DNA from: Stagnihabitans tardus
GTDB lineage: Bacteria > Pseudomonadota > Alphaproteobacteria > Rhodobacterales > Rhodobacteraceae
Direction: 5' to 3'
DNA length: 64,000 nt
NCBI RefSeq assembly: GCF_009925085.1
Contig: NZ_JAABNR010000003.1
Location: 1-64,000 of the forward strand
Shown: piece by piece, positions 3,882 through 63,728 of the stretch
Numbering within the stretch: position 1 is the first letter of the stretch
Layout: each line of letters starts with the position of its first letter
Program-made: the position numbers and the translations under genes
Notes under the pieces: model-generated
What the model was told of the DNA's origin: nothing
What the model saw: only the letters and a program-made list of their open reading frames with translations
Databases searched by the model: none

Positions 3882-6494
3882 TCAATGCACCCGCACTTCC
3901 GCAGGCCTTTCCTTGGTCGAGCGCAGGACGCGGTCCCCGATCACCAGCCCATCGGGTGCCGCCGAGATCGTGACGGTGGACCCGTCCAGCACCTCGCCCC
4001 CCAGGATCATCTGCGCCAGTTGATCCTGCAGATGCCGCTGGATCACCCGCTTCAGGGGCCGAGCGCCATAGACCGGGTCGTAGCCCTCATCCGCCAGCCA
4101 CTGCCGCGCCGCCGCGTCGGTCTCCAGCGTGATCTTGCGCGCCGCGAGCCGGGCCTCCAGCTTCTTCAGCTGGATGTCCACGATGGCGCCCATGTCACCC
4201 CGGCCCAGGCGCTCGAAGATGATCGTCTCGTCCAGGCGGTTCAGGAATTCGGGGCGGAAGTGACCCCGCACCGCCTCCATCACCTCGGCCCGGGCGCCAG
4301 TCGGGTCAGCGCCCTCGGGCAACTGGGACAGGGAATAGGCCCCCAGGTTGGACGTCAGGATGATCAGCGTCTGCTTGAAGTCCACCGTCCGGCCCTGGCC
4401 ATCGGTCAAAACGCCATCATCCAGCACCTGCAACAGCACGTTGAAGACATCCGGATGGGCCTTTTCCACCTCGTCGAAGAGGACCACCTGGTAGGGCCGC
4501 CGCCGCACGGCCTCGGTCAGCACCCCGCCTTCATCGTAACCGACATAGCCCGGAGGCGCGCCGATCAGACGCGAGACGGCATGTTTCTCCATGAACTCCG
4601 ACATGTCGATGCGGACCATCGCGCTATCGTCGTCAAAGAGATACTCGGCCAGGGCCTTGGTCAGCTCGGTCTTGCCCACGCCGGTCGGGCCGAGGAAGAG
4701 GAAAGAGCCCAAAGGCCGCCCCTCATCGTTCAGCCCGGCCCGCGCCCGCCGCACGGCGTTCGAGACAGCGGTGACCGCCGCCTTCTGGCCGACAACCCGC
4801 TTGCCGATCTGCTCTTCCATCTTCAGAAGCTTTTCCTTCTCGCCCTCCAGCATCTTGGAGGTCGGGATGCCGGTCCAGCGTTCGACCACTTCCGCGATCT
4901 GTTCAGGCCGCACGGCTTCCGAGACCAGGGCCTGGCCCTGCCGCGTCTCGGCCTCGGCCAAGGCCTTCTCCAGCGCGGGGATGCGCCCATATTGCAGCTC
5001 CCCGGCCTTGGCGAAGTTGCCCTCGCGCTTGGCGCCGTCCAGTTCGGCCCGGGCGCGGTCCAGCTGCTCCTTGATATCCCGCGCCTTCTCCAAGGAGTCG
5101 CGCTCGGCCTGCCAGGTCGCCGTCATCGAGGCCGAAGCCTGCTGCAGATTGGCCAGCTCCTTCTCCAGCTTCTCCAGCCGGTCACGAGAGGCGGCATCGT
5201 CTTCCTTCTTCAAGGCCTCGGCTTCGATCTGCAGCTGCAGGATCTGGCGGTCGAGGGCGTCGAGTTCCTCGGGCTTGGAGTCCACTTCCATCCGCAGACG
5301 GGAGGCTGCCTCGTCCATCAGGTCGATCGCCTTGTCGGGCAGGAAACGGTCGGTGATGTAGCGATGCGACAGGGTCGCCGCAGCCACCAGCGCCGCATCG
5401 GCGATCCGCACGCCGTGGTGCAGCTCGTACTTCTCCTTGATGCCGCGCAGGATGGAAATGGTATCCTCCACCGTGGGCTCGGAGACCATCACCGGCTGGA
5501 AGCGCCGGGCCAGGGCCGCGTCCTTCTCCACATACTTGCGATACTCATCCAGCGTCGTGGCGCCGACGCAATGCAGCTCCCCGCGCGCCAAGGCCGGCTT
5601 GATCAGGTTGGCCGCATCCATCGCGCCATCCGATTTCCCCGCGCCCACCAGAGTATGCATCTCGTCGATGAAGAGGATGATCTCCCCTTCCGCCGAGGTC
5701 ACCTCGTTCAAGACCGCCTTCAGCCGTTCTTCGAACTCGCCGCGATACTTCGACCCGGCAATGAGCGACCCCATGTCGAGCGCCATCAGCTTCTTGTTGC
5801 GCAAGCTTTCGGGCACATCGCCATTGACGATCCGCAGCGCGAGCCCTTCGGCAATCGCCGTCTTGCCCACGCCGGGCTCGCCGATCAGGACCGGGTTGTT
5901 CTTGGTCCTGCGGCTCAGGACCTGCATGGTCCGCCGGATCTCGTCATCGCGGCCGATGATCGGGTCGATCTTGCCTTGCTCCGCCGCCTCGGTCAGGTCG
6001 CGGGCATATTTCTTCAGCGCATCATAGCCCTCTTCGGCCGAGGCCGTATCCGCCGTCCGCCCCTTGCGGATGTCGTTGATCGCCGCATTCAGCTTCTGCG
6101 CCGTCACCGCCCCCGCATCCAGAGCGCTCTTGGCCGCCGAAGTGACCAGGCACAAAGCCATCAGCACCCGCTCGACGGGCACGAAGGAATCCCCCGCCTT
6201 CTTGGCGACCTTCTCGGCCTCGTCCAGGACCTTGACCAGCCCCGGATCGGTGAAGGGCTGCGCATCGCCTGTGACCTTGGGGAGTTTCCCCAGGGCCAGG
6301 TCCAAAGCCTCGACCACGCGGGCGGGCTCGCCCCCGGCGCGGCGGATCAGGTTGGACGAGAGCCCCTGTTCGTCATCCATCAGGGCTTTCAGCAGGTGTT
6401 CGGGCGCCAGCCTCTGGTGGCTTTCCCGCATCGCGATGGTCTGGGCGGCCTGCAAGAAGCCGCGCGACCGTTCCGTGAATTTCTCCAAATTCAT
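3882..6494 (-). CDS. clpB: ClpB protein disaggregase (AAA+ chaperone)
   Basis: 870 residues, full length for ClpB. This hexameric cytosolic disaggregase works with DnaK to rescue heat-aggregated proteins. Domains in order: N-terminal Clp repeat domain (about 1-145); first AAA+ module with Walker [10 protein letters not shown] near residue 205; the long coiled-coil middle domain (about 400-520), which distinguishes ClpB from ClpA; second AAA+ module with Walker [10 protein letters not shown] near residue 600; and C-terminal D2-small domain. Start [10 protein letters not shown] matches the family N-terminus and has AGGAGAG just upstream; the 15-residue upstream extension is not family-like. Divergent from queG. 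Confidence 0.97.
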
Positions 6495-6636
6495 CGTTAC
6501 TCTCCTTTGAAGCACCGTCCGAAGCGCCCAAAGTGGCACGCTTCATCGGCCTTGCCCTTGATCTGGGATAAGACCCCGCCCGCTGCAAGACCGCCAAGAG
6601 GTCGCGGGGCGAAAATTCCCGTGCTATGCCTTTGGG

Positions 6637-7674
6637 ATGACTCTGAAAGACAAACTCCACGCCCGGGCCATGGAGGAGGGTTTCTCCGCCATGGGCATCT
6701 GCGCGCCCGATGCCATCCCGCAGGCCTCCGAGCGGCTGGCGGCTTTCGTGGCCCAGGGCGCGCATGGGCAGATGTCCTGGATGGCCGAACGGATGGAGTG
6801 GCGCGGCAACCCCGCCGCTTTGTGGCCCCAGGCGCGCTCGGTCATCATGCTGGCCGAGGTCTATCCGGGTGCCCGCAGCCCAACGCCGCCCGATCATGGC
6901 GAGATCTCGATCTATGCCCAGGGCAAGGATTACCACGACCTGGTCAAGCGGCGGCTGAAACGGCTTGGCGGCTGGCTGGTGGCCGAGGCGAAAAAGGCGG
7001 GGGAGGTGCCCGAGATCAAAGTCTTCGTCGACACCGCCCCGGTGATGGAGAAGCCGCTCGCCCAGGCCGCGGGCCTGGGCTGGCAGGGGAAACACACCAA
7101 TCTCTTGTCCCGCGACCTTGGCAACTGGTTCTTCCTCGGCGCGATCTTCACCACGCTCGACCTGGAGAAAGACGCCCCCGAGGTCAGCCATTGCGGCTCC
7201 TGCACCGCCTGCCTGGAGGCCTGCCCGACGAAAGCCTTCCCCGCGCCCTATCAACTCGACGCAAGGCGCTGCATTTCCTATCTGACCATCGAGCACAAGG
7301 GCCCCGTCGACCTCGACCTGCGCGAGGGCCTGGGGAACCGCATCTACGGCTGCGACCTCTGCCTCGCCGCCTGCCCCTGGAACAAGTTCGCGGCCGAGGC
7401 GAAGGAAATCGGCTATGCCTCCCGCACCGGCAACCCGCCCCTGGCCGAGTTGGCGAGCCTGGACGATGCCGCCTTTCGGGAGCGTTTCGCGGGCAGCCCG
7501 ATCAAGCGGATCGGCAGGGATCGCATGGTCCGGAACGTGCTTTACGCCATCGGGAACTCGGGCGACCCTTCGCTTGCCGCCTCCGCCGAGGCCCTGCGGG
7601 AGGACCCCGACCCCACGGTGGCCGAAGCCGCCGCCTGGGCGCTCAGCCGGCTAGCCGGTCCCGCAGCGCGGTGA
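6637..7674 (+). CDS. queG: Epoxyqueuosine reductase QueG
   Basis: 345 residues. Catalyses the last step of queuosine formation in tRNA (epoxyqueuosine to queuosine), using cobalamin and two [4Fe-4S] clusters. The cluster motifs are visible: [12 protein letters not shown] near residues 186-197 and [10 protein letters not shown] near 239-248. The C-terminus carries a HEAT-like stretch. The 3' end overlaps the convergent ohrR gene by 32 bases. It is divergent from clpB with a 142-base spacer. Confidence 0.95.
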
Positions 7675-8068
7675 TCTGGTCGCGGAGCGCGGTCAGCCTC
7701 TCGACCTCCAGCCCGCAGGCGTCGAAGATGCAGCGGCTGATATGGCCCGCCTCGGCCTTCAGCCCAGCGCCCTTTTCGGACAGCGTCACCCGCACCTGGC
7801 GTTCGTCCTGCTCATCCCGCGCCCGCGCCACCAGGCCCTGCGCCTCCATCCGCTTCAAGAGCGGGGTAAGGGTGTTGGACTCCAGCCCCAGCGCCCGGCC
7901 AAGGTCGGTGACGCGGCGGCCGTCCTCCTCCCACAGCGCCATCAGCACCAGGAACTGCGGATAGGTCAGGCCGAGGGGGGCAAGCAGCGGTTGATAGACC
8001 CTCTGCATGGCGTGGTTGGCCGAATAGAGGGCAAAGCAGATCATGTCAGGCAGGGTCAGCTGGCTCAT
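7643..8068 (-). CDS. ohrR: OhrR-type MarR family peroxide-sensing repressor
   Basis: 141 residues with a MarR winged-helix fold ([27 protein letters not shown] is the recognition region). The N-terminal segment around Cys11 ([13 protein letters not shown]) and [16 protein letters not shown] are hallmark OhrR blocks. Cys11 would be the hydroperoxide-reactive residue, and Cys113 and Cys118 are candidate partners, suggesting the 2-Cys class. It is divergent from ohr, the standard target, with palindromic operator-like sites between them. It should repress ohr and itself until oxidised by organic peroxide. It ends inside queG. Confidence 0.9.
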
Positions 8069-8081
8069 GCAATCTGATTAA

Positions 8082-8095
8082 ATCGCGCGCGATTA
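8082..8095. promoter_or_regulatory. OhrR operator-like palindrome
   Basis: AATCGCGCGCGATT is a perfect 14-bp palindrome, 13 bases upstream of the ohrR start. Two related imperfect copies sit near the ohr promoter (8133-8144 and 8148-8160). MarR dimers bind such sites. Its placement predicts ohrR autoregulation. Confidence 0.6.
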
Positions 8096-8104
8096 AAAAG
8101 CAAG

Positions 8105-8160
8105 TTGACCGAATCGAAGGGGAGGGATATTCAATCGCTAACGACTTAATCGCAAACGAT
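8105..8160 (+). promoter_or_regulatory. ohr promoter with two tandem OhrR operator-like repeats
   Basis: A -35 TTGACC (8105-8110) and -10 TATTCA (8128-8133) are 17 bases apart. Immediately downstream lie AATCGCTAACGA (8133-8144) and AATCGCAAACGA (8148-8159), direct repeats on a 15-base period. Both resemble half or degenerate forms of the ohrR-side palindrome. Repressor bound here would cover the transcription start. Confidence 0.6.
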
Positions 8161-8170
8161 GGAGATTCCC

Positions 8171-8599
8171 ATGACGGTCGATCCGAAGTATTTCACCGAA
8201 GCCACCGCGACGGGCGGCGGCCGCAATGGCCTGGCCAAACTGGCCAATGGTCAGCTGACCGTCACGCTGGCGACCCCGAAAGAGCTTGGCGGGACGGGCC
8301 TCGGCCACAATCCCGAAGAGCTCTTCGCGCTTGGCTATGCCGCCTGCTACCTGGGTGCCATGCGCTTTGCGGCGCAGTCCGAAAAGCTGGGGACGGTGCC
8401 CGAGGATGCGACGGTGACGGCCAAGGTCGGGATCGGTCCGCGCTCGGAGGGCGGCTTCGGCCTGGCCATCACGCTCGAGGTCAAGATGCCGGGCGTCGAC
8501 AAGGCCGTGGCCGAAAAGATCGCCGAGCGCGGCCATTTCATCTGCCCCTATTCGCACCTGTCGCGCGGTGGCGTGCATGTGGCGACCGTGGTCGCCTGA
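8171..8599 (+). CDS. ohr: Organic hydroperoxide resistance protein Ohr
   Basis: 142-residue OsmC/Ohr-family thiol peroxidase that reduces organic and fatty-acid hydroperoxides with lipoamide as electron donor. The catalytic pair is present: Cys59 in GYAACYLGA and Cys125 in CPYSHLSRG. The start at 8171 was chosen because GGAG sits six bases upstream and MTVDPKYFTE fits the family N-terminus. An ATG at 8159 is possible but overlaps the second operator repeat. Paired with the divergent ohrR. Confidence 0.95.
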   Translation: MTVDPKYFTEATATGGGRNGLAKLANGQLTVTLATPKELGGTGLGHNPEELFALGYAACYLGAMRFAAQSEKLGTVPEDATVTAKVGIGPRSEGGFGLAITLEVKMPGVDKAVAEKIAERGHFICPYSHLSRGGVHVATVVA

Positions 8600-8710
8600 G
8601 GTTGGCCGCAGGGGGTTGCGCGCCCCCCGCACCCACCCGAAGAGCGGGGGCTTCACACCCCCGCCGCGTTCATCGGTGCTCGGACCCATGGCGCAGCGAT
8701 GGACGCACCC

Positions 8711-8767
8711 GTGGGATATTTTTGGACCAATGAACAAGGGGCGGCTTCGGTCGCCCCTTTCCTTTTG
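8711..8767 (+). terminator. Terminator downstream of ohr, overlapping an intergenic repeat copy
   Basis: An AAGGGGCG stem (8736-8743) pairs with CGCCCCTT (8752-8759), followed by TCCTTTT. The left part (8711-8735, GGGATATTTTTGGACCAATGAA) resembles the dispersed GGGATATTTGGGCAAGTATGAAAG element found elsewhere in this window. The remaining bases from 8600 hold no gene I can support. Confidence 0.65.
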
Positions 8768-8807
8768 CCGGGGCCTTGCTAGCCTTTCGGGAAACAGGGA
8801 GGCTGAC

Positions 8808-9572
8808 ATGGGTCGTTTGGCGGGCAAGGTTGCGATCATTTCGGGCGGGGCGACCGGGATCGGCGAGGCCTCGGTGCGGTTGTTCGCCGCCGAGGGAGCT
8901 GCCGTCGGAATCATCGATCGCAACGTCCAGGCCGGACAGGCCCTGGCGCAGGACTTGCAGTCGGCAGGGCACCGGGTGGTCTTTGCCGAGGCCGATGTCA
9001 GTCGGCGGGGCCCCGTGGAGGCTGCTGTCGCGCAGGTGCGCGCCGCGCTGGGGCCGGTGAACGTCCTCTTCAACCATGCCGGCACCATCGTCATCAAACC
9101 CTTCCTCGAGACCAGCGAAGAGGACTGGGACGGGCTTTTCGATATCAACGTCAAGTCCATGTACCTGATGACCCGCGCCGTCCTGCCCATGATGCTGGAC
9201 CAGGGCAAGGGCGCCATCGTCTGCACCGCTTCGATCTCCGGCTTCTACGCCACGCCGAACGAGGTGCTTTACGACGCGACCAAGGCCGCCTGCGCCATGT
9301 TCTCCAAGGCCATCGCCATCGAGTTCCGCGACCGTGGCATCCGCTGCAACGCCGTCTGCCCGGGCTTCATCCTCACCCCCCATGGCCGTCGCGAGGTCGC
9401 CGACCTGACGGCGCTTGGGGTCGATGTCTCGGAGGCTGCGATGAAGGCCGCCCAGGGGCGCTTCGGCCTGCCCGAAGATATCGCAAGGGCGGCGCTTTAC
9501 CTCGCCTCGGATGATGCGGAATTCGTCAACGGGACAGAACTCTTCGTCGACAACGGCTTCTCTGCGGTCTGA
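8808..9572 (+). CDS. Short-chain dehydrogenase/reductase (SDR)
   Basis: 254 residues, classical SDR length. The NAD(P)-binding glycine motif is GGATGIGEA near residue 13. Catalytic Ser, Tyr and Lys appear as TASISGF, then Y-DATK, and the NHAG block is present. An acidic residue after the second strand (IIDRN) favours NAD+ over NADP+. GGGAGG precedes the ATG by eight bases. The substrate cannot be assigned. Neighbours (ohr before, cytochrome c peroxidase after) give no pathway hint. Confidence 0.85.
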   Translation: MGRLAGKVAIISGGATGIGEASVRLFAAEGAAVGIIDRNVQAGQALAQDLQSAGHRVVFAEADVSRRGPVEAAVAQVRAALGPVNVLFNHAGTIVIKPFLETSEEDWDGLFDINVKSMYLMTRAVLPMMLDQGKGAIVCTASISGFYATPNEVLYDATKAACAMFSKAIAIEFRDRGIRCNAVCPGFILTPHGRREVADLTALGVDVSEAAMKAAQGRFGLPEDIARAALYLASDDAEFVNGTELFVDNGFSAV

Positions 9573-9649: not shown

Positions 9650-10651
9650 ATGCGCCGCGCCATCCTTGCCCTCTGTCTTGTCGTGCCCTGCGCGAGCGTC
9701 TCAACCGCCGAAGTCTCGAAAGAAGTCAAGGAAAGCTACCGCCGCCCCTTGACCGTGCCCTTCCCGGCCGATGCGCCCTATGATCCGCGCATCGCCACCC
9801 TGGGCAAGATGCTCTATTTCGACCCCCGACTCTCGGGGGCGCAGAATCTCAGCTGCGCCTCCTGCCACAATCCCTCCTTCGGATCAGAGGCGCCCTCGGC
9901 CCGGTTCATCGGCGCGGCGGGTGTGCCGCTTGGCCGCCACACGCCGACGACGATCAATGTTGCCTGGGTCAGCCCGCTCTTTTGGGATGGTCGCGCCGCC
10001 ACGCTGGAGGAACAGGCCAAGGGACCGATCACCAGCCCGGTCGAGATGAACGCCACGATGTCCCAGGTGGTCGAGCGGCTCTCCCGCGTGCCGCAATATG
10101 CCGAGACCTTCGACAAGCTCTTCCCGGGTGAGGGGTTGAGCGAAGGCTCGATCCTGAAATCCATCGCGATGTTCGAACGCACGCTGGTTGCGGGCTGGGC
10201 GCCCTTCGACCGCTGGATCGAGGGCAACGAGAATGCGATCTCGGCCGAGGCCAAGCGCGGATTCGAGCTCTTCATAGGCCAGGGCGCCTGTGCCAACTGC
10301 CATACGGGCTGGAACTTCACCGACAATCAGTTCCATGACATCGGCCTGCCCGGGAATGATCCGGGCCGCCTGGCAATCGATCCGTCCAACCCCTTGAACG
10401 AACACGCTTTCAAGACACCAGGCCTGCGCAACATCGCGCTTCGCGCGCCCTTCATGCATGACGGAACCCTGAAAGACCTGGGCGCGGTCCTGGACCACTA
10501 CGCGAAGAAGGTCATCCAGAGACCCAGTCTCAGTCCCTCGATGGCACAAATCACCCTGTCACCGGAAGACAGCAAGGCCATCATCGCCTTTCTCGAAACC
10601 CTGACCGAAGAAACCAGCGCCATCTCCACTCCTGTATTGCCGGCGAACTGA
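9650..10651 (+). CDS. Di-haem cytochrome c peroxidase (MauG/CcpA superfamily)
   Basis: 333 residues with a Sec signal peptide (1-20, cleavage near VSTA). Two c-type haem motifs are present: CASCH (Cys69, Cys72, His73) and CANCH (Cys214, Cys217, His218). This is the layout of bacterial periplasmic peroxidases that reduce H2O2 with cytochrome c electrons. HDIGLP and FKTPGLRNIALRAPFMHDG are family blocks. The start at 9650 follows CAGGAAACC; a slightly longer form from an upstream TTG is possible. One base separates its stop codon from the chemoreceptor start, so the two are almost certainly one operon. Confidence 0.92.
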   Translation: MRRAILALCLVVPCASVSTAEVSKEVKESYRRPLTVPFPADAPYDPRIATLGKMLYFDPRLSGAQNLSCASCHNPSFGSEAPSARFIGAAGVPLGRHTPTTINVAWVSPLFWDGRAATLEEQAKGPITSPVEMNATMSQVVERLSRVPQYAETFDKLFPGEGLSEGSILKSIAMFERTLVAGWAPFDRWIEGNENAISAEAKRGFELFIGQGACANCHTGWNFTDNQFHDIGLPGNDPGRLAIDPSNPLNEHAFKTPGLRNIALRAPFMHDGTLKDLGAVLDHYAKKVIQRPSLSPSMAQITLSPEDSKAIIAFLETLTEETSAISTPVLPAN

Positions 10652-10652
10652 C

Positions 10653-12464
10653 ATGCTCTCCATCCAGACCCGACTTCTGATCGTCATTTTCCTGCTTGGC
10701 ATGACCGCCATCATTGGCAGCCTCGGCATGGGATATACCGCCTGGGCCATCTCGCTTGAGAAGGACAAGGTGGTGTCCGCCTCGTTGAACGCCTTGAACG
10801 CGGCCAATACCCTGACCCAGGGCTTGAACGATGCCCGCAAGGTCGTTGAAAAGGTCGAGGCCATGACCGAAATGGTCGACATGGCCAAGGTGCGCAAGGA
10901 TTTCACGATCAAGACAGCCCTGATCGACACCTCGATCACCTCGATGAAATCCGCGACACTGTCCGAACAGATGCAAAAGGCCATCGAGACGTTCGAGGCG
11001 GCCAAGACGCAATGGGTCGAAGGGGCCAAGATCTTGCTCGGCTTCACCAAATCGGCCGAGATTCCGACATCCGAGCTCTTGCACCGCCAGGCGCAAGAGG
11101 TTCTGGCCCAGGCGTTGAAGATTGCGACAATCGCGCAGACCGATGCCAATGCCTATGTGTCAAAGGCCCGCGCCGACATGAAGACCAAGCTGATCCTGAC
11201 GGCGGGCCTGATGTTGGCGGCCATCCTGCTTGTGGCGGGGATCGTTCTCTTCTTCTCGCGCCGCGTGGCGAAGTCGGTCGCCCAACTGGCGGCCCGGCTC
11301 AGGGCCATGTCGGGCGCCGGGGACAGCGGGTCTTCGCGGGACGAGGTGGCGCAGATGCGCTTTGCCGCCGAACGGCTCGAGCAAGAGTTCTCTGCCTTTC
11401 AGGCTGCACTTGGTCGGGCGACCATGGCGGCAGCCGCGGGCGATCTGACCGTGAGGATGGAAGAAACCGCCGCCCAGGAAGACCTGCGCGGGATCGCCGT
11501 CCAGATGAACCAGGTCTTCACTGCGGTCGAGGGCGCGACGGGGGCGATTTCCTCTGTCCTGCGCGACTATGCGGCGGGCAATCTCTCTGCGCGGATGACG
11601 GGCGATTACCAGGGGGTCTTTGCCGACCTGCAACGCGACGGCAACTCGACCGGAGAGAAGCTGGCCGAGCTGGTCGATCAGATCAAGGAAACCGCCGACC
11701 GCATCCGGATCGAGCTGCAACCGATCCAGAACGGCGCGCGCGACCTGTCCTCGCGTGCAAAGCGCCAGGCCGAACGTCTGCATGAGACGGCTGCAACCAT
11801 GGTCGAGCTTTCCGCCACGGTCGAGGCCAATGCCAGCAATGCCTCAAGGGCGACCCAACTCTCCGAGGGCACGTCCGGCGCGGCGGTGAATGGCGGCAAC
11901 GTGGCCTCCGAGGCGATTTCGGCGATCCGGCTGGTGTCGGAAAATGCTCGCCAGATCAACGAGATCACTGGCTATGTCGATGACATCGCCTTCCAGACCA
12001 ACCTCTTGTCGCTGAATGCCGCGGTGGAGGCCGCGCGGGCGGGCGATGTCGGCAAGGGCTTTGCCGTCGTCGCGCATGAGGTGCGCATGCTGGCCAACAA
12101 GGCCGCCGATGCCTCGTCCGAGATCAAGAACCTGATCGGCCAATCGACGCGCAATGTGGGCAATGGCGTGAAATTCGTCGAGGCGACCGGCAAATCCCTG
12201 GTCGAGATTCACGACTCGGTCGACCAGGTGGTGGAGGCGGTCGGCCAGATCTCCACCGCCGTCAAGGAACAGGCGGCGGGCATCACGGCGGTGTCCGACA
12301 TCGTCACCAGCTTGGAGCATGAGACCGGTCAGAACGCCCGCCTCGCCTCGGATTCCGCCTCGGCCGTCGATGGGCTGATGGCCGAGATCGCGCGGCTGAA
12401 CCGGCTGATCGCCTATTTCAACACCCAGGCCGGGGTCGAGGCGCCCACCGCGCTTTCCGCCTAG
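10653..12464 (+). CDS. Methyl-accepting chemotaxis protein, co-transcribed with the peroxidase
   Basis: 603 residues. Topology is classical: TM1 about 8-30, a helical periplasmic sensor about 33-178, TM2 about 180-202, HAMP-like segments, and a long cytoplasmic coiled coil. The signalling tip is [21 protein letters not shown] followed by KGFAVVAHEVR (residues about 447-480). It relays a periplasmic signal to CheA/CheW. The ATG begins one base after the peroxidase stop codon. No C-terminal CheR-docking pentapeptide is visible. The ligand is unknown; the operon suggests a redox or peroxide-linked cue, which is inference. Confidence 0.92.
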   Translation: MLSIQTRLLIVIFLLGMTAIIGSLGMGYTAWAISLEKDKVVSASLNALNAANTLTQGLNDARKVVEKVEAMTEMVDMAKVRKDFTIKTALIDTSITSMKSATLSEQMQKAIETFEAAKTQWVEGAKILLGFTKSAEIPTSELLHRQAQEVLAQALKIATIAQTDANAYVSKARADMKTKLILTAGLMLAAILLVAGIVLFFSRRVAKSVAQLAARLRAMSGAGDSGSSRDEVAQMRFAAERLEQEFSAFQAALGRATMAAAAGDLTVRMEETAAQEDLRGIAVQMNQVFTAVEGATGAISSVLRDYAAGNLSARMTGDYQGVFADLQRDGNSTGEKLAELVDQIKETADRIRIELQPIQNGARDLSSRAKRQAERLHETAATMVELSATVEANASNASRATQLSEGTSGAAVNGGNVASEAISAIRLVSENARQINEITGYVDDIAFQTNLLSLNAAVEAARAGDVGKGFAVVAHEVRMLANKAADASSEIKNLIGQSTRNVGNGVKFVEATGKSLVEIHDSVDQVVEAVGQISTAVKEQAAGITAVSDIVTSLEHETGQNARLASDSASAVDGLMAEIARLNRLIAYFNTQAGVEAPTALSA

Positions 12465-56152: not shown

Positions 56153-56518
56153 ATGTCAAAGACCGTCCTTTCGATTGACGACAGCAAGGCCATCCGTGAC
56201 ATGGTCGCCTTCACCCTGGGGAATGCGGGTTACCGGGTGATCGAGGCCGAGAATGGCCTTCAGGGGCTGGACAGGCTGCGCTCCGAACCCGTGTCGCTGG
56301 TGATCGTCGACCTGAACATGCCGGTGATGAACGGGTTCGAGTTCATCAAGAAGGCGCGGTCCGACGCCAAGGGCGCCGGCATCCCGATCCTGATGCTGAC
56401 CACCGAATCCCGCCCCGAGGCCAAGGCCGAAGGCAAGGCGCTGGGCGCCACCGGCTGGCTGAACAAACCCTTCGACGCGAACATGCTTCTTACCGTCACA
56501 CGAAAGCTGGCGGGTTGA
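56153..56518 (+). CDS. cheY: CheY, single-domain chemotaxis response regulator
   Basis: 121 residues, receiver domain only. Acidic pair Asp9/Asp10 (SIDDSK), phosphoacceptor Asp53 (IVDLNMP), Thr in MLTTES and Lys in LNKPFD are all present. CheA-phosphorylated CheY would bind the flagellar switch or act as a phosphate sink. Four bases separate it from cheA. Confidence 0.94.
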   Translation: MSKTVLSIDDSKAIRDMVAFTLGNAGYRVIEAENGLQGLDRLRSEPVSLVIVDLNMPVMNGFEFIKKARSDAKGAGIPILMLTTESRPEAKAEGKALGATGWLNKPFDANMLLTVTRKLAG

Positions 56519-56522
56519 CCCG

Positions 56523-58448
56523 ATGCAAGTGAACCCCGCCGTCCAAAGCTATGTGATCGAGGCGCGGGACCTTCTGGCCCAGCTCGAGACCATGCTTCTC
56601 GACCTGGAACAGGCCGCCCCGCCAGAGGCCGTCGACAGCGTCTTCCGCGCCCTGCACACCCTGAAGGGCGGCGGCGGCATGTTCGGCTTCCCGGCGCTCT
56701 CGGCCTTTGTCCATCACTTCGAGGATGCCTTCGACCTCGTCCGCATGGGCAAGATATCCGTGACGCGTCCGCTCTTGGATGCGGCCCTTGCCGGGCGCGA
56801 CCATGTCATTGCCCTTCTGGATGCGGGCGGCGACCCCGAGCGGACGGATGCCCTCGCCAATTCGCCCGAGGCGGCTTCGATCCTGTCCCAGCTTGCCCGG
56901 GCCGCAAACCTCGCCCCCCCGCCCGTCGCCCCGGCGGAGCGGGGCTGGATGGTCCATTTCCGACCCGCCGCCAATGCGCTGATGCACGGGATGCGCCCCG
57001 ACCTCTTGCTGGAGGAGCTGGCCAGCCTTGGCCAGTGCGAGGTGAAATGCCTGGCCCAGGGCCTGGCCCCCCTGGCGACGCTGGACCCGACGCAAAGCCA
57101 TCTGGGCTGGGATGTGACCCTGCACACGACCCAGGGTCGCGCGGCCATCGAGGCTGTCTTCATCTTTGCCGAAGACGCCGAACTGACCATCACAGAGATT
57201 GCCCCGCCCGAGGTCGAAACCAAGGCAGAGGGTCCGGCGCAGGTCCGCAGCACGGCGCCGAGCCGGGCACAGCACAATCCCGAAACCGTGCGCGTTCCCT
57301 CGTTGAAGCTGGATGCCATCCTTGACCAGTTGGGCGAATTGGTCATCGCCCAGGCGCGGCTGAACCAGATCGCCTCTCGCTTTGGCGATTCGACGCTGGA
57401 TGGCCTGGTGGAGGAGTTTCAGCGCCTGATCGGGGGCCTGCGCGACACGACGCTGGCCATCCGGATGCTGCCGATCGAGACGGTCTTCGGCAAGTTCCGC
57501 CGCGTGGTCCGCGACCTGTCGGTCGAACTGGGCAAGGAAGTGATCCTGGAAACCGAGGGCGGCGAAACCGAGATCGACAAGAACGTGCTCGACCGCCTGT
57601 CCGAACCCCTGGTCCACATGATCCGCAACTCGGTCGACCACGGCATCGAATCCACGGCCGAACGCGTGGCGGCGGGCAAGCCGGCCCAGGGCCTCGTCCG
57701 CCTGGCCGCCTGTCAGGATGCCGGGGAAATCCTCATCACGATCGAGGATGACGGCAAGGGCCTGGATCATGAGCGCATCCGGCAAAAGGCCATCGAACGC
57801 GGGATCCTTGCTCCCGAAGCCACGCCGACCGAAAGCCAGCTGGCCGAGCTGATCTTCGCCCCCGGCTTCTCGACCGCCGAAAAGGTCTCCAGCGTCTCGG
57901 GGCGCGGGGTCGGGATGGATGCGGTGATGACGACGATCTCCGCCCTGCGCGGCTCGGTCGAGGTCATGTCGCGCAAGGGCGAGGGCACGCTGATCTCGCT
58001 GCGCCTGCCCCTGACGCTGGCCATCATCGACGGGCTTCTGGTGCAACTGGGCGGCGACATCTTCGTCATGCCGCTGATCGCCGTGGATGAATGCGTCGAG
58101 TTCGACCTGACCGAGCTGAAGCGCGACAGCGGCCGCACCATGCTGGCCATCCGGGACGAGATGGTGCCTTTCGTCGACCTGGCCCATGTCTTCGGCGTGC
58201 CCGTCGATGGCGTGGCCCGGCGCCGCGTCGTCATCGTCCGGGCAGAGGGGCAGCGGATGGGCCTGGTCGTCGATGACATCCTGGGCCAGCACCAGACCGT
58301 CATCAAGCCCATGTCGCCCTTCCACGCCGACCTGGCCGACTTTGCCGGCGCAACGATCCTTGGCGATGGCACCGTAGCCCTGATCCTTGACACAACTTCG
58401 CTGCTGCGGCGCCTGTTGGACAGCCCGTCGCAAGCCCTTGCCGCCTGA
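56523..58448 (+). CDS. cheA: CheA chemotaxis sensor histidine kinase
   Basis: 641 residues. P1 HPt domain with phosphorylatable His45 (RALHTLKGGGGMFGF); a P2-like region (about 140-235); P3 dimerisation (LDQLGELVIAQARLNQI); P4 kinase with N box IRNSVDHGIES, G1 EDDGKGLD, FAPGFSTAEKVS and G2 SGRGVGMDAV; P5 CheW-like coupling domain at the C-terminus (ID-GLLVQLGGD onward). All catalytic blocks are intact. It phosphorylates CheY and CheB. cheW follows seven bases later. Confidence 0.96.
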   Translation: MQVNPAVQSYVIEARDLLAQLETMLLDLEQAAPPEAVDSVFRALHTLKGGGGMFGFPALSAFVHHFEDAFDLVRMGKISVTRPLLDAALAGRDHVIALLDAGGDPERTDALANSPEAASILSQLARAANLAPPPVAPAERGWMVHFRPAANALMHGMRPDLLLEELASLGQCEVKCLAQGLAPLATLDPTQSHLGWDVTLHTTQGRAAIEAVFIFAEDAELTITEIAPPEVETKAEGPAQVRSTAPSRAQHNPETVRVPSLKLDAILDQLGELVIAQARLNQIASRFGDSTLDGLVEEFQRLIGGLRDTTLAIRMLPIETVFGKFRRVVRDLSVELGKEVILETEGGETEIDKNVLDRLSEPLVHMIRNSVDHGIESTAERVAAGKPAQGLVRLAACQDAGEILITIEDDGKGLDHERIRQKAIERGILAPEATPTESQLAELIFAPGFSTAEKVSSVSGRGVGMDAVMTTISALRGSVEVMSRKGEGTLISLRLPLTLAIIDGLLVQLGGDIFVMPLIAVDECVEFDLTELKRDSGRTMLAIRDEMVPFVDLAHVFGVPVDGVARRRVVIVRAEGQRMGLVVDDILGQHQTVIKPMSPFHADLADFAGATILGDGTVALILDTTSLLRRLLDSPSQALAA

Positions 58449-58455
58449 GGTCACG

Positions 58456-58944
58456 ATGGAAGCACTTCCCCCGATGGACGAGACAGAGACAGGGCCGGAA
58501 ATGTCCCTGATCCTGCGATTGAACGGCGAATCCCTCGCGATCCCCGTGCGCCATGTGCACGAGGTGATCAACGCCATCCCGCGCACAAGGGTGCCCAATG
58601 CCTCGGCCATGGCGCCCTGGCTGATCAACGTGCGCGGCGCGGTGGTGCCGCTGGTCGATGTGCGGCGCCGGTTGAAGATGCCGCCCCGCGACCATGACGA
58701 CGGGCGGATCGTCGTGCTGGATATCCCGCGCGGTGCCGAAAGCCACAGGCTGGCCCTTCTGGCCGATGGCGTTGAAGAGGTGATGGAAATCGACCCTCTC
58801 CGCATCGAACCCCTGCCCCCAAGGGGCGCGCCCTGGCCGATCGAGTTCGTTCGCGGCTCGATCCGCCGCGACGGTGACCTGGTCCTGATCCTGGAACCCG
58901 AATCCCTGTTCGAGCCCGAAACCGGCTCCCGTCCCCTCCATTGA
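58456..58944 (+). CDS. cheW: CheW coupling protein (first copy)
   Basis: 162 residues, single CheW domain (about 15-150). Couples receptors to CheA in the array. Blocks: SLAIPVRHVHEVINAIPRT, the conserved NVRGAVVPLVDVRRRL with the receptor-contacting region, and VLDIPRG. An acidic N-terminal extension (MDETETGPE) precedes the domain. It lies between cheA and the receptor gene. This is one of two divergent cheW genes in the operon. Confidence 0.92.
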   Translation: MEALPPMDETETGPEMSLILRLNGESLAIPVRHVHEVINAIPRTRVPNASAMAPWLINVRGAVVPLVDVRRRLKMPPRDHDDGRIVVLDIPRGAESHRLALLADGVEEVMEIDPLRIEPLPPRGAPWPIEFVRGSIRRDGDLVLILEPESLFEPETGSRPLH

Positions 58945-58956
58945 GCGAGACCTGTC

Positions 58957-61119
58957 ATGAAACTGACCATAAAGACCAAGCTTGGCGCGACTTTCGGACT
59001 GATCCTCGTCCTTCTGGGGGCGATTTCCTGGATCGGGCTCAATGCGCTGGAAGACCTGAACACCGAGGTGAACAGACTGGCGACGGTGAACAACCGCCAG
59101 GTCGAGCTGGCGGGGGACCTGCGGCAGATCTGGACGCGGATGGATTACCTGACCCTGCGTCACATCCTGGTGTCCACTGAGGAAGAGATGCTGGCCATCG
59201 AAGAGACTCTCGGTGATCTGCGGACGGAGCAGAATGCCGAACTTGACGAACTGGCCAAGCTGGACGACGGGTTGCTCACCAAGGCGCTGGAGGAACTGGT
59301 TCAGGTCAGCACCCTGATCGCCACCCAGCGCGACGAGGTGCTGAGACTCTCGCGCACGGGCAGCCGCGCCGAATCCGGGGCCCTGGTCGTGGCCAATGTG
59401 GTCAAGGAATCCGAAGAGGTCGGCCGACGCGAAGGCAGCTTGCAGGACGCGGTCATCGCCTCGGGCGCCATGGGGGTCGATCCCTTCATCAACCAGGTGG
59501 ATGTCGTCAGCGATCTGGCCTTGCGGGTCAATCTCAAGACCTCGGTCCTGGATTCGCACAAGGAAGATGGCGCCATCGCCGAGCTTTCGGCCGAATTGCA
59601 GGCCCTGATGACCGAGACCGAGGCCGAATTGCAGCGGCTGAACGAAATGAACGGCGGCCGCTACCGGCTGGAATACGAGGCCTTCGAAAAGGCCATCCAG
59701 GCGGTGCTGACGACCGGTTCCGAGGTGGTTCGCCTCGTCGTGGAGAATTCCGAGAACAAGGCCGAACTCATTCTCTTTGGCGAGTTGGGCAAGCTGGTGA
59801 CGCGCCGCAACACCGTGCTGGCCGATGTCATCACCTCTGTCGACGCCGAAACCGCCGAAACCATCGCCACTGCGGCCGAGGCCTATGGCTCCAGCCGGTC
59901 CCTGATCGTGGCCTTTGCCGGCCTGGCCATCGGGGCGGGCATCATCGGGGCCGTCCTGATCGTGGTCTCGATCACACGCGGGCTGAACCGCGCCGTGGGT
60001 GCAGCCCGCAAGGTGGCACAGGGCGACCTGAATGCCGATGTCCACGCAACCTCGAGGGACGAATTGGGCGACCTGATGACCGCCATGGGCGAGATGACCG
60101 GTTCGCTCAAGGCGATGACCGCGACGGCCGAGGCGATCTCGCGCGGGGATCTGACCGTGACGACCAAGCGTCGGTCGGATGCGGATACCCTGGGCATCGC
60201 GCTGGAGCGGATGCTGACCAAGCTGCGCGACGTGGTGGGCAACATGGCCGTCTCGTCGCAAAGCGTGGCCTCTTCGGCCCATGCCATGAGCTCGACCGCC
60301 GAGGACCTGTCCTCGGGCGCGACCGAACAGGCGGCGGCGGCGGAACAGGCCTCCTCGGCCATGGAGGAGATGAGCGCGAACATCCGGCAATCGGCCGACA
60401 ATGCCGCGCAGACCGAAAAGATCGCGACCCATGCGGCCACCCAGGCCAAGGAAAGCGGCGAGGCGGTGGGCGAGGCCGTGCAAGCCATGCGCACCATCGC
60501 CGACAAGATCACCATCATCCAGGAGATCGCGCGGCAGACCGACCTCCTGGCGCTGAATGCCGCGGTCGAAGCGGCGCGGGCCGGCCAGCATGGCAAGGGC
60601 TTTGCCGTCGTCGCCTCCGAGGTGCGCAAGCTGGCCGAACGCAGCCAGCAGGCAGCGGGTGAAATCAACGAGCTCTCGGGCCGCACGGTCGATGTCAGCC
60701 GCAAGGCTGGCGAGATGTTGACGACCCTGGTGCCCTCGATCCAGCGCACGGCGGACCTGGTGCAAGAGATCTCAGCCGCGATGCGCGAGCAGAACACCGG
60801 GGCGGATCAGATCAACCAGGCGATCCGGCAACTGGATACGGTGATCCAGCGCAATGCCTCGGCCTCGACCGAAGCCGCTTCGGTTTCGGATGGGCTGGCG
60901 GCCCAGTCCGAACAGCTGCACGGCATCATCAGCTTTTTCAAGCTGGATGAGAAGGACGGGCGGCCCGCTGCCGCGCCGCGTTCCGGCCGCCCGGCGCCGT
61001 CCAGCACCGCAGCCCAGTGGCGCGCCCCCTCGCAGCGCGGCGTCATGGACGGGACCACAGGCATGGTTCTGGACCTGACGGAAGGCGACGTGAAGGACTC
61101 GGACTTCGAGCGGTTCTGA
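58957..61119 (+). CDS. Methyl-accepting chemotaxis protein of the che operon
   Basis: 720 residues. TM1 about 9-30, a long helical periplasmic domain (about 33-312) of four-helix-bundle type, TM2 about 313-338, a HAMP region, and a cytoplasmic signalling domain whose tip contains [20 protein letters not shown] with [17 protein letters not shown] (about 522-565). A flexible Ala/Pro/Ser-rich linker of about 60 residues ends in DFERF, resembling the NWETF-type CheR/CheB docking tail. Full-length, intact. It starts 12 bases after cheW. Confidence 0.95.
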
Positions 61120-61173
61120 CACCCAAGGGTGGCGCGACGGGCGCGCCACCCCCTCCTTCCGGCGGATAGACCC

Positions 61174-61728
61174 ATGCAGGCAGTTGACCAGACCTCGAAC
61201 CCACGCCCCGGATTGCGCAGCCGTCTTGGCGCCGCCGTCCCGATCGAGACCGAAACATCGACCTTCGTGACTTTCGACCTGGGCGATCAGACCTTTGCCG
61301 TGGATGTCGCCAATGTGCGCGAGATTCTTGATGCGCAAGAGATTTCGCCGCTGCCCAACGCGACCTCGGACCTGATGGGGATGATCGACATTCGCGGCCA
61401 GGGGATTCCGGTGATGGACCTGAGCTTGCCGCTGGGCCTGCACCGTCGCACCCATGGCGAGGCGGATGAGCGGCTGATCGTGCTCGACTTCGCCGAGGAT
61501 GCCGCACCAACCGTGGCCATCGCAGCCGACCGGGTGCGCAGCGTGATCGAGATCGCGGCCTCGGTCATCGACCCGGTGCCGCAGGTGCCCGGAACCTGGG
61601 CCTCCGGCGCGATGAAAGGCGTCACGCGGCTGGATGGGGCGCTGGTCTATGTGATCGACCTGCGTGAGGCACTGCGCATGGCGCCGCAGGACAGATCAGG
61701 GCTGAAAGGGCCCTTTGACTTCGACTGA
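61174..61728 (+). CDS. cheW: CheW coupling protein (second copy)
   Basis: 184 residues. A CheW domain (about 28-170: FVTFDLGDQTFAVDVANVRE, GMIDIRGQGIPVMDLSLPL) is preceded by about 25 divergent residues. It differs strongly from the first CheW, so it is an old duplicate with perhaps a separate receptor or kinase preference. Start ATG 61174 has only a weak ribosome site; a start at 61129 exists but is less likely. cheR follows. Confidence 0.92.
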   Translation: MQAVDQTSNPRPGLRSRLGAAVPIETETSTFVTFDLGDQTFAVDVANVREILDAQEISPLPNATSDLMGMIDIRGQGIPVMDLSLPLGLHRRTHGEADERLIVLDFAEDAAPTVAIAADRVRSVIEIAASVIDPVPQVPGTWASGAMKGVTRLDGALVYVIDLREALRMAPQDRSGLKGPFDFD

Positions 61729-61783
61729 CATGCCGGACTATGCCCAGACAATCGACGCCCCATTCCCCCAGGAGGGTCGGCGC

Positions 61784-62617
61784 ATGTCGCGCCGCATCGC
61801 GAGGATTCTCGTCGAGCGCTTGAAGGCCGTGGCGGGCATCCGTGTCGATCCGCAGAACGAGCAGTTCCTGACCTTTCGCCTGAACCGGAGGCTCGATGCA
61901 TTGGGCCTGGCAAGCTACGAGGACTATCTCTCGATCCTCGAGGGCCCCAAGGGAGAGGCGGAGACCGCGCGGCTTGTCGAAATGCTGGTCACCCATACGA
62001 CCAGTTTCTTCCGCGAGCCCGCGCATTTCGACTGGCTGGCCAAGACGGGCCTGCCCAGTCTTTGCGACAAGGGCGCAGGGCGCCTGCATCCCCTGACCAT
62101 CTGGAGCGCGGCTTGTTCCACCGGGCCAGAGCTCTGGTCGGCCGGGATCGTGGTCGATCAATTCGCCCAAGCGATCCCGGGCGGGCTGCGCTGGGGGATG
62201 ATCGGCACCGATATCTCGGCAAACGTGCTGCGGCGGGCGGCCGGGGCGGTCTTTAGCGCGACAGAGATGGCGGGCATCCGCGAGGAGGACAAGCGGCAGT
62301 ATTTCCTGCGCTCGCGCCCTGGCGTGGCGACAGAGAACGGGATGCCGATCTTCCGCGTCGCGCCGGAATTGCGCAGCCGCGCCAGCTTTCTTCAGGCCAA
62401 TTTGCTGCAACCCCTGCCCGACTTTCCGCTGGCCGACCTCGTCTTTCTGCGCAACGTCCTGATCTATTTCGCCCTCGAGGATCGCCAGACCTGCCTCGGC
62501 CATGTCTGCGCAAGGATCCGCTCCGGCGGATATCTGCTCCTGGGGCACAGCGACAGCCACCATGGCCTGCCTCCCGGCCTGACCCAATGCGGCCCCTCGA
62601 TCTTCCGAAAGGTATGA
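61784..62617 (+). CDS. cheR: CheR receptor methyltransferase
   Basis: 277 residues from ATG 61784, which has AGGAGGG eight bases upstream; a start at 61730 would add 18 residues but lacks a ribosome site. Methylates receptor glutamates with AdoMet. Visible features: the N-terminal helical domain, [12 protein letters not shown], the AdoMet block [11 protein letters not shown], and [13 protein letters not shown]. Cys replaces the usual Gly/Ser in the AACSTG loop, which is common. Overlaps nothing; cheB begins four bases later. Confidence 0.93.
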
Positions 62618-62621
62618 GCCC

Positions 62622-63728
62622 ATGACCCACCAGCCCACAGCGATCCGACCTGCCGGCGGGAAGAAAGCAGGCGCGATCCGGGTCTTCATCGTCGACGACA
62701 GCGCCGTCGTGCGGCGGGCGCTGACCGATATCCTTGCGGCCGACCCCAGGTTCGAGGTCATTGCCGCCGTCAACGACCCCTTCGCGGCGGCCGAAAGGCT
62801 GCGGCATGTCCTGCCCGACGTGATCGTCCTGGATATCGAGATGCCGCGAATGGACGGCGTCACCTTCCTGAAGAAACTGATGGCGCAGCATCCGATCCCG
62901 GTGGTCATCTGTTCGTCGCTGGTGGCCGACAAGTCCGAGACCTTGCTGGCCGCCCTGGCCGCCGGCGCGGTCGAGGTCATCGCCAAGCCGGAACTGGGCG
63001 TGAAGCAATTCCTGGAAGAGGCCGCCGCCCAGGTGCGGGAAGCGGTCTTTGCCGCCGCCCGCGCCAAGGTCAAGGTGATCCACAGCCCGCCACCCGTCGC
63101 GCCGAAACTCTCGGCCGATGCGATGCTGCCGGCACCCAGCGGCGCGGCCATGCTGCGAACGACCGAGAAGATCATCGCCATCGGCGCCTCGACCGGCGGG
63201 ACCGAAGCCCTGCGCGTCCTCCTGGAAAGCATGCCGATGGACTGCCCGCCCATCGTCATCGTGCAGCACATGCCCGAAAGCTTCACGGCGGCCTTCGCCA
63301 AAAGGCTGGATTCGATCTGCGCCATCACCGTGTCCGAGGCGCGCAACGGTGACCGGCTCTTGCGCGGCCATGCCCTGATCGCGCCGGGCAACAAGCACAC
63401 CCTGCTCGCCCGCTCGGGCGCCCATTACATGGTCGAGGTCCGCGACGGCCCCATGGTCTCGCGCCACCGGCCCTCGGTCGATGTGCTGTTTCGCTCGGTC
63501 GCGCGTTTTGCCGGGTCGAATGCGGTGGGGATCATCCTGACCGGCATGGGCGACGATGGGGCCAAGGGCATGAAAGAGATGCGCGACCTCGGCGCCTCGA
63601 CCATCGGGCAGAACGAGGCGAGCTGTGTCGTCTATGGCATGCCGAAAGAGGCCATGGCTGCCGGTGCCGTCGAGCAAGAGCTGCCGCTGGAGCGGATCGC
63701 GGCGGCAGCCCTGCGCTTGGCAAAATGA
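62622..63728 (+). CDS. cheB: CheB receptor methylesterase/glutamine deamidase
   Basis: 368 residues. N-terminal receiver (Asp25/Asp26, phosphoacceptor Asp71 in [11 protein letters not shown], Lys in AKPEL), then a linker, then the CheB catalytic domain with Ser near residue 190 ([10 protein letters not shown]), His in VQHMP and Asp in [11 protein letters not shown]. Complete. With CheR it sets receptor methylation and adaptation. It is the last gene of the operon; no CheD or CheZ follows. Its stop codon abuts the convergent epimerase-like gene. Confidence 0.96.

Follow-up and report, generated by a model that had tools for sequence, protein, structure and literature searches.

Several described systems resemble parts of the locus analysed here. 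In TorC-TorS and TorT-TorS, the periplasmic domain of a transmembrane kinase receives its signal from a periplasmic c-type cytochrome (TorC) or from a binding protein (TorT) (PMC11727998). TorC, however, is a respiratory multihaem cytochrome and not a peroxidase. To our knowledge, the Tor systems show no output swapping. XylFII-LytS and QseG-QseE, which are among the nearest PDB folds, resemble the receptor in the type of their input fold and in having a partner able to dock on the periplasmic domain, and in MBP-Tar a periplasmic partner docks on a four-helix sensor. The partners in these systems are sugar-binding proteins or lipoproteins rather than redox enzymes. DcrA is a haem-bearing extracytoplasmic sensor, and we know of no oxidant-sensing chemoreceptor (TlpD, CZB proteins) that has a peroxidase partner. 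In sCache_heme sensors, a periplasmic c haem feeds a signalling protein (PMC12889525). The haem of sCache_heme sensors and DcrA is held inside the receptor itself, whereas here it belongs to a separate enzyme. TlpD (HOCl) and CZB proteins serve chemotaxis to reactive oxygen/chlorine species (PMC6715182, PMC13370339); TlpD, unlike the receptor described here, is a cytosolic chemoreceptor (PMC6715182).

On the enzyme side, the closest relatives belong to the MauG/CCP_MauG superfamily (BthA, MbnH), with which the present peroxidase is predicted to share two c haems, the equivalents of Trp93/Gln103/Pro107 and of the distal Glu, and a Tyr ligand of the second haem (PMC6405878). Its partner is nevertheless a transmembrane receptor and not an amine dehydrogenase, a phosphatase or MbnP. 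For uncharacterised CCP_MauG members, genomic context points past detoxification, and the word chemotaxis is absent from the paper that reports this (PMC6405878). Searches of open-access PMC full texts found no description of a MauG/peroxidase-chemoreceptor pair. Periplasmic receptor partners and haem-bearing receptor domains are known kinds; what appears to be new is a MauG-type enzyme as the dedicated, output-independent partner of a receptor.

The window, that is, the whole stretch of 64,000 nucleotides that was analysed, comes from a contig of the 4.6-Mb draft genome of Stagnihabitans tardus. The pair and its context are as follows.

7643-8068, - strand: OhrR-type MarR regulator, context only (NCBIfam OhrR model, 136 bits, below the cut-off of 200)
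8159-8599, + strand: Ohr organic hydroperoxide peroxiredoxin, context only (TIGR03561, 144 bits, above the cut-off of 88.9)
9650-10651, + strand: MauG-like di-haem peroxidase, 333 aa, predicted to be secreted (Pfam CCP_MauG, 7e-53; NCBIfam TTQ_mauG, 324 bits, cut-off 444; PDB matches to di-haem CCPs and MauG)
10653-12464, + strand: chemoreceptor (MCP), 603 aa, the partner of the peroxidase (Pfam MCPsignal, 4e-39; HAMP_2; 4HB_MCP_1)
56153-63725, + strand: complete che cluster (CheY, CheA, CheW, MCP, CheW, CheR, CheB)

The peroxidase ORF has an ATG start with AGGA 5' of it and ends with TGA at 10649-10651. Only one base, C at 10652, separates this stop from the receptor ATG at 10653 on the same strand, and the receptor ends with TAG at 12462-12464. 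The one-base coupling on which the earlier note had built its proposal was thus confirmed from the sequence, and the identical 1-bp junction was kept in two further genus genomes, whose peroxidases are 72% and 77% identical. Upstream of the peroxidase lie ohr and the OhrR-like regulator gene, with a single SDR gene intervening. The ohrR-ohr-SDR block (7643-9572) is also present in genus members that lack the pair, and it marks the place at which the pair entered or left the genome. The complete che cluster offers a pathway that the receptor could feed. The MCP of this cluster (58957-61116) carries a 4HB_MCP_1 domain as well, and CheW-domain matches in the genome number eight. Scans for promoters, terminators and RNA families gave nothing exceeding chance.

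The peroxidase was characterised by the following features.

9650-9709, + strand: putative Sec signal peptide MRRAILALCLVVPCASVSTA, read by eye without a predictor
9854-9868, + strand: haem c motif 1, CASCH (C69-H73), invariant in 29 orthologues
9983-9985, + strand: W112, corresponding to Trp93 of MauG, invariant in 29 orthologues
10289-10303, + strand: haem c motif 2, CANCH (C214-H218), invariant in 29 orthologues
10499-10501, + strand: Y284, predicted from its alignment column as the MauG-type Tyr ligand of the six-coordinate haem

The predicted Sec-type cut, also placed by eye, falls between MRRAILALCLVVPCASVSTA and the E that follows, and the Pfam domains of the protein are CCP_MauG and Cytochrom_C. 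Residues Q122, P126 and E132 lie at +10, +14 and +20 from W112; the first two are invariant in the 29 orthologues and E132 is found in 28 of them. This spacing equals that of Trp93/Gln103/Pro107 in MauG and of residues 257/267/271/277 in BthA (PMC6405878). In the column where the second haem takes its distal ligand, the orthologues have Tyr (28/29) or Phe (one), while Met is found in all 12 canonical CCPs, which come from the same bacterial family. BthA is reported to require Tyr-His ligation for its bis-Fe(IV) state (PMC6405878), and the residues required for BthA-type bis-Fe(IV) chemistry appear by alignment to be present in the peroxidase. Because of the Tyr ligand, the shared MauG/BthA spacing and the reported role of Tyr-His ligation in BthA, we assign the protein on sequence grounds to a MauG-like clade and not to the canonical bacterial cytochrome c peroxidases; in the peroxidase tree, it falls in a clade separate from the latter.

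With canonical CCPs it shares two CXXCH motifs and the CCP_MauG domain, but not the Met distal ligand of the high-potential haem. With MauG it shares, by alignment, the putative Tyr-His six-coordinate haem (Y284), while the score of its best NCBIfam model, MauG TIGR03791, stays below the equivalog cut-off (323.8 against 443.85 bits). With this score and with no mau genes seen nearby, identity as a true MauG (TTQ synthase) is not supported. The Me-amine-dh_H model had no match in the own genome, and the control genomes likewise had none. Among PDB sequence matches, canonical di-haem peroxidases came top, followed by another di-heme enzyme and by entries for MauG. An AlphaFold model of the peroxidase was set aside at a pLDDT of 59.5. 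The label di-haem peroxidase given in the earlier note therefore holds, with the CCP_MauG domain, the two CXXCH motifs and the predicted secretion, but it needs refinement to MauG-like, since the Tyr ligand had been missed.

Peroxidase orthologues turned up in 13 named genome records and in 65 plasmids (PLSDB records). Those followed by a sensor gene are 45-77% identical and come from Alpha- and Gammaproteobacteria. At an identity of at least 50%, the enzyme occurs in 5/298 family genomes, the window's own included; it occurs in 3/16 genus genomes and, at E <= 1e-70, in 15/385 class genomes. We read 22 non-redundant close loci (the window, L033-L045, L062-L066, L068, one Rhizobium type and L182). 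In every one of them a transmembrane sensor gene lies immediately downstream of the peroxidase on the same strand, with constant order and orientation and with gaps ranging from small overlaps to ~103 bp. The control set consisted of 36 distinct canonical CCP loci (42 less 6 duplicates) from the same bacterial family, read with 1.5 kb flanks. An MCP was found within 1.5 kb at none of the 36, and any signalling ORF at only three (two kinase-like, one GGDEF-like). That the arrangement of the two genes exceeds chance is shown by the 1-bp junction kept in two further genus genomes and by a gene order that holds across two proteobacterial classes.

At six more loci (L069-L073 and L075), enzyme and MCP are separated by one or, in some cases, two cupredoxin genes. 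This sister clade suggests a three-part module in which the copper protein would either carry electrons or be the substrate. A directly downstream sensor is absent at the more distant homologues L074, L076 and L077. At L074, a protoglobin-MCP-PilZ protein (5768-7393), an oxygen-sensor type of chemoreceptor with a c-di-GMP-binding domain, is encoded two genes upstream of the distant MauG-like peroxidase, with NAD synthase between them. No natural peroxidase-receptor fusion was seen among the peroxidase ORFs, most of which are 326-446 aa long, with one longer frame of 545 aa at L061. The earlier note held that its idea would fall if the pairing were unique to this strain; the pair in fact spans two proteobacterial classes (22/22 loci and the six with cupredoxin).

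The two partners also come and go together. A profile of the input domain (A1) matched in 5/298 family genomes, the same five that have a close peroxidase; as these five sequences were part of the profile, only the 293 negatives are independent information. Within the genus, enzyme and input domain occur together in the same 3/16 genomes, and neither occurs in the other 13. Among the 385 class genomes, the held-out, near full-length profile matches below 1e-7 were those in G422, G591 and G608, all within ~2.5 kb of a peroxidase, and the remaining matches were mostly partial, covering the C-terminal TM2/HAMP part. One hybrid kinase (L103, G087 contig 8, 1-2181, - strand) gave a weak input-domain match with no adjacent peroxidase, and its genome holds another complete pair. 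The distance matrices of enzyme and input domain correlate at r = 0.86 over 23 pairs, with 0/2000 permutations as high, although such co-divergence is partly expected from the shared ancestry of linked genes. The genes for partner and input domain are thus paired in a conserved way, as looked for in a dedicated periplasmic co-sensor.

The strongest argument comes from the outputs. By Pfam, most partners are MCPs, but L038 has HisKA-HATPase, L040 and L063 are hybrid kinases with receiver(s), and L064, L065 and L182 carry GGDEF-EAL; the sensor of G591 is another GGDEF-EAL variant, with PAS domains. The output switches at least three times along the peroxidase tree, and still ~200 N-terminal residues of the partners can be aligned across every output type. 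What is kept beside the enzyme is therefore the input domain and not the output, and this exchange of outputs had escaped the earlier note. Since one input domain stays constant beside one enzyme while outputs are exchanged, we argue for functional coupling, and a functional pairing of peroxidase and receptor is strongly supported. The peroxidase-linked MCP of L073 (10756-13155) carries a C-terminal PilZ domain.

The receptor is divided as follows.

10674-10742, + strand: TM helix 1, about residues 8-30 (hydrophobicity by eye; unbroken helix 4-69 in the model)
10743-11186, + strand: predicted periplasmic four-helix input domain, residues 31-178 (AlphaFold2 model), conserved across outputs
11013-11066, + strand: input-domain signature W121-x7-L129-G130-x7-P138 at the modelled membrane-distal apex (conservation and model)
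11187-11258, + strand: TM helix 2, about residues 179-202 (hydrophobicity by eye; model)
11481-11648, + strand: HAMP_2 domain (Pfam)
11856-12317, + strand: MCP signalling domain with the CheA/CheW-contacting tip (Pfam; sequence)

It has what an MCP should have, namely MCPsignal with an intact hairpin tip, HAMP and two TM helices, in a genome with a CheA/CheW pathway. AlphaFold2, run on 13 sequences, predicted the input domain as a four-helix bundle that runs into both TM helices (mean pLDDT 84.9; helices 4-69, 77-100, 105-128 and 140-214). The domain misses the Pfam gathering score of 4HB_MCP_1 (22.1 against 27 bits), but the predicted fold is still that of a four-helix bundle. Its top-conserved periplasmic positions are W121, P138, M71, G130 and L129. 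Across 13 aligned input domains, L129, G130 and P138 are invariant and W121 nearly so; across 22, P138 and W121 each exceed 90%. The motif W-x7-[LIVF]-[GAST]-x5-8-P was found in 17/25 linked sensors as against 0/30 control 4HB domains. In the model, the conserved residues would sit in or just below two membrane-distal loops (70-76 and 129-139). The nearest PDB folds by Foldseek, all with E > 0.01, were Tsr, Tar, PcaY, other helical sensors, LytSN with XylFII and QseE with QseG. Apex conservation is compatible with the docking of a partner protein, but only suggestive of it.

Taken as a whole, the peroxidase and the adjacent receptor rather probably form one sensing module, with the MauG-like enzyme as a dedicated periplasmic co-sensor, probably for peroxide. 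The exported peroxidase, loaded with its two c haems, would partner the transmembrane receptor encoded beside it. Periplasmic H2O2 or another oxidant would bring the enzyme to a high-valent, MauG-type oxidised state, which the Tyr-ligated haem may make possible. This state, or its loss, would alter the contact of the enzyme with the membrane-distal tip of the four-helix domain, and the resulting helix shift would pass through HAMP to the attached output, which would be CheA/CheW here; relatives would instead use a histidine kinase or c-di-GMP enzymes. The contact between the two proteins, the peroxide stimulus and signalling rather than one-time maturation or protection of the receptor are the parts of this scheme that we infer. 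The redox pathway from peroxidase to receptor that the earlier note suggested is supported in part, as to action through the periplasmic four-helix domain, given a pairing that is widespread, co-occurring and co-diverging with a constant input domain; its oxidant stimulus and protein contact keep the status of inferences. A bolder form, in which the MauG-type enzyme would signal by covalently or electronically oxidising a periplasmic residue of the receptor, with taxis, phosphorelay and c-di-GMP as interchangeable outputs, is rather unlikely; the receptor would then report oxidant by way of its own enzymatic oxidation.

Oxidation of the receptor by the enzyme is also the core of the alternative with the most chemical precedent, since tryptophans in a partner protein are the target of MauG (PMC6405878). 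The peroxidase would in that case modify the receptor once, for example at the near-invariant Trp121, and the matured receptor would sense something else. MauG acts in this way on pre-methylamine dehydrogenase, and MbnH is reported to modify a tryptophan of its partner MbnP. The Tyr-ligated MauG-type haem site and the presence of W121 in 21/22 linked input domains suit this reading. However, many four-helix chemoreceptor domains of the ordinary kind have a Trp at this place in helix 3 (roughly half of the 30 controls, for the most part within W-x-x-Y), and L040 is without it. Trp121 is hence not specific to the pair, and it was rejected as specific proof of a MauG-type substrate; one-time maturation is on balance unlikely.

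Less likely again is an indirect coupling, in which the peroxidase would make or remove a small molecule that the receptor detects, by consuming H2O2 or forming an oxidised organic compound, and the two proteins would not touch. It would account for the linkage and for the conservation of the enzyme, and small molecules are frequent ligands of four-helix domains (Tsr, Tar and PcaY are among the nearest folds). Conservation is strongest at the apex, though, and not along the sides of the bundle, and so strict a one-to-one pairing, with co-divergence, would not be needed for a product that diffuses.

The gene neighbourhood bears on the stimulus. In the Rhizobium plasmids that were read, the pair lies close to katG and to oxyR or its LysR-type equivalent. 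At these loci (L133-L136), on large symbiont plasmids, the pair shares its surroundings with katG, a gene for an OxyR-type regulator, panBC and a member of the ProQ/FinO family, and in one case among them the pair is directly beside repABC. L142 and L146, genus members that lack the pair, have the ohr-ohrR-SDR flank, and in this genus the ohr-ohrR flank is older than the pair. Peroxide-gene neighbours were seen in two lineages only, and most other loci are without them. Such neighbours were accordingly rejected as proof of H2O2 sensing. Peroxide as the stimulus is therefore only plausible, and it follows from the enzyme class together with a suggestive context.

The ohr-ohrR and katG-oxyR neighbours would suit an oxidant regulon, in which peroxidase and receptor are merely co-expressed stress genes with separate jobs. 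Shared regulation alone, which the earlier note had offered as its alternative, predicts neither the joint presence and absence of domain and enzyme nor a constant input domain with four output kinds; it leaves output swapping unexplained, and we regard it as very unlikely. Hitch-hiking of a two-gene cassette held together by horizontal transfer, with no functional dependence, fits the patchy spread (three of 16 genus genomes, five of 298 family genomes) and the many plasmid copies (65 PLSDB records), but it is barely credible when outputs were exchanged while input domain and peroxidase remained linked, with order and orientation fixed in 22 loci.

The proposed co-sensor module should soon be testable, since the tractable hosts Rhizobium etli and R. 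leguminosarum carry the pair beside katG-oxyR. The four-helix sensor domain with W-x7-LG-x7-P can now be recognised elsewhere. Many non-canonical CCP_MauG proteins have no known job, and one widespread clade of them gains a testable role as an input to membrane signalling. If the proposal is true, the pair would represent a general, swappable link through which chemotaxis, transcription or c-di-GMP could be coupled to redox chemistry in the periplasm.
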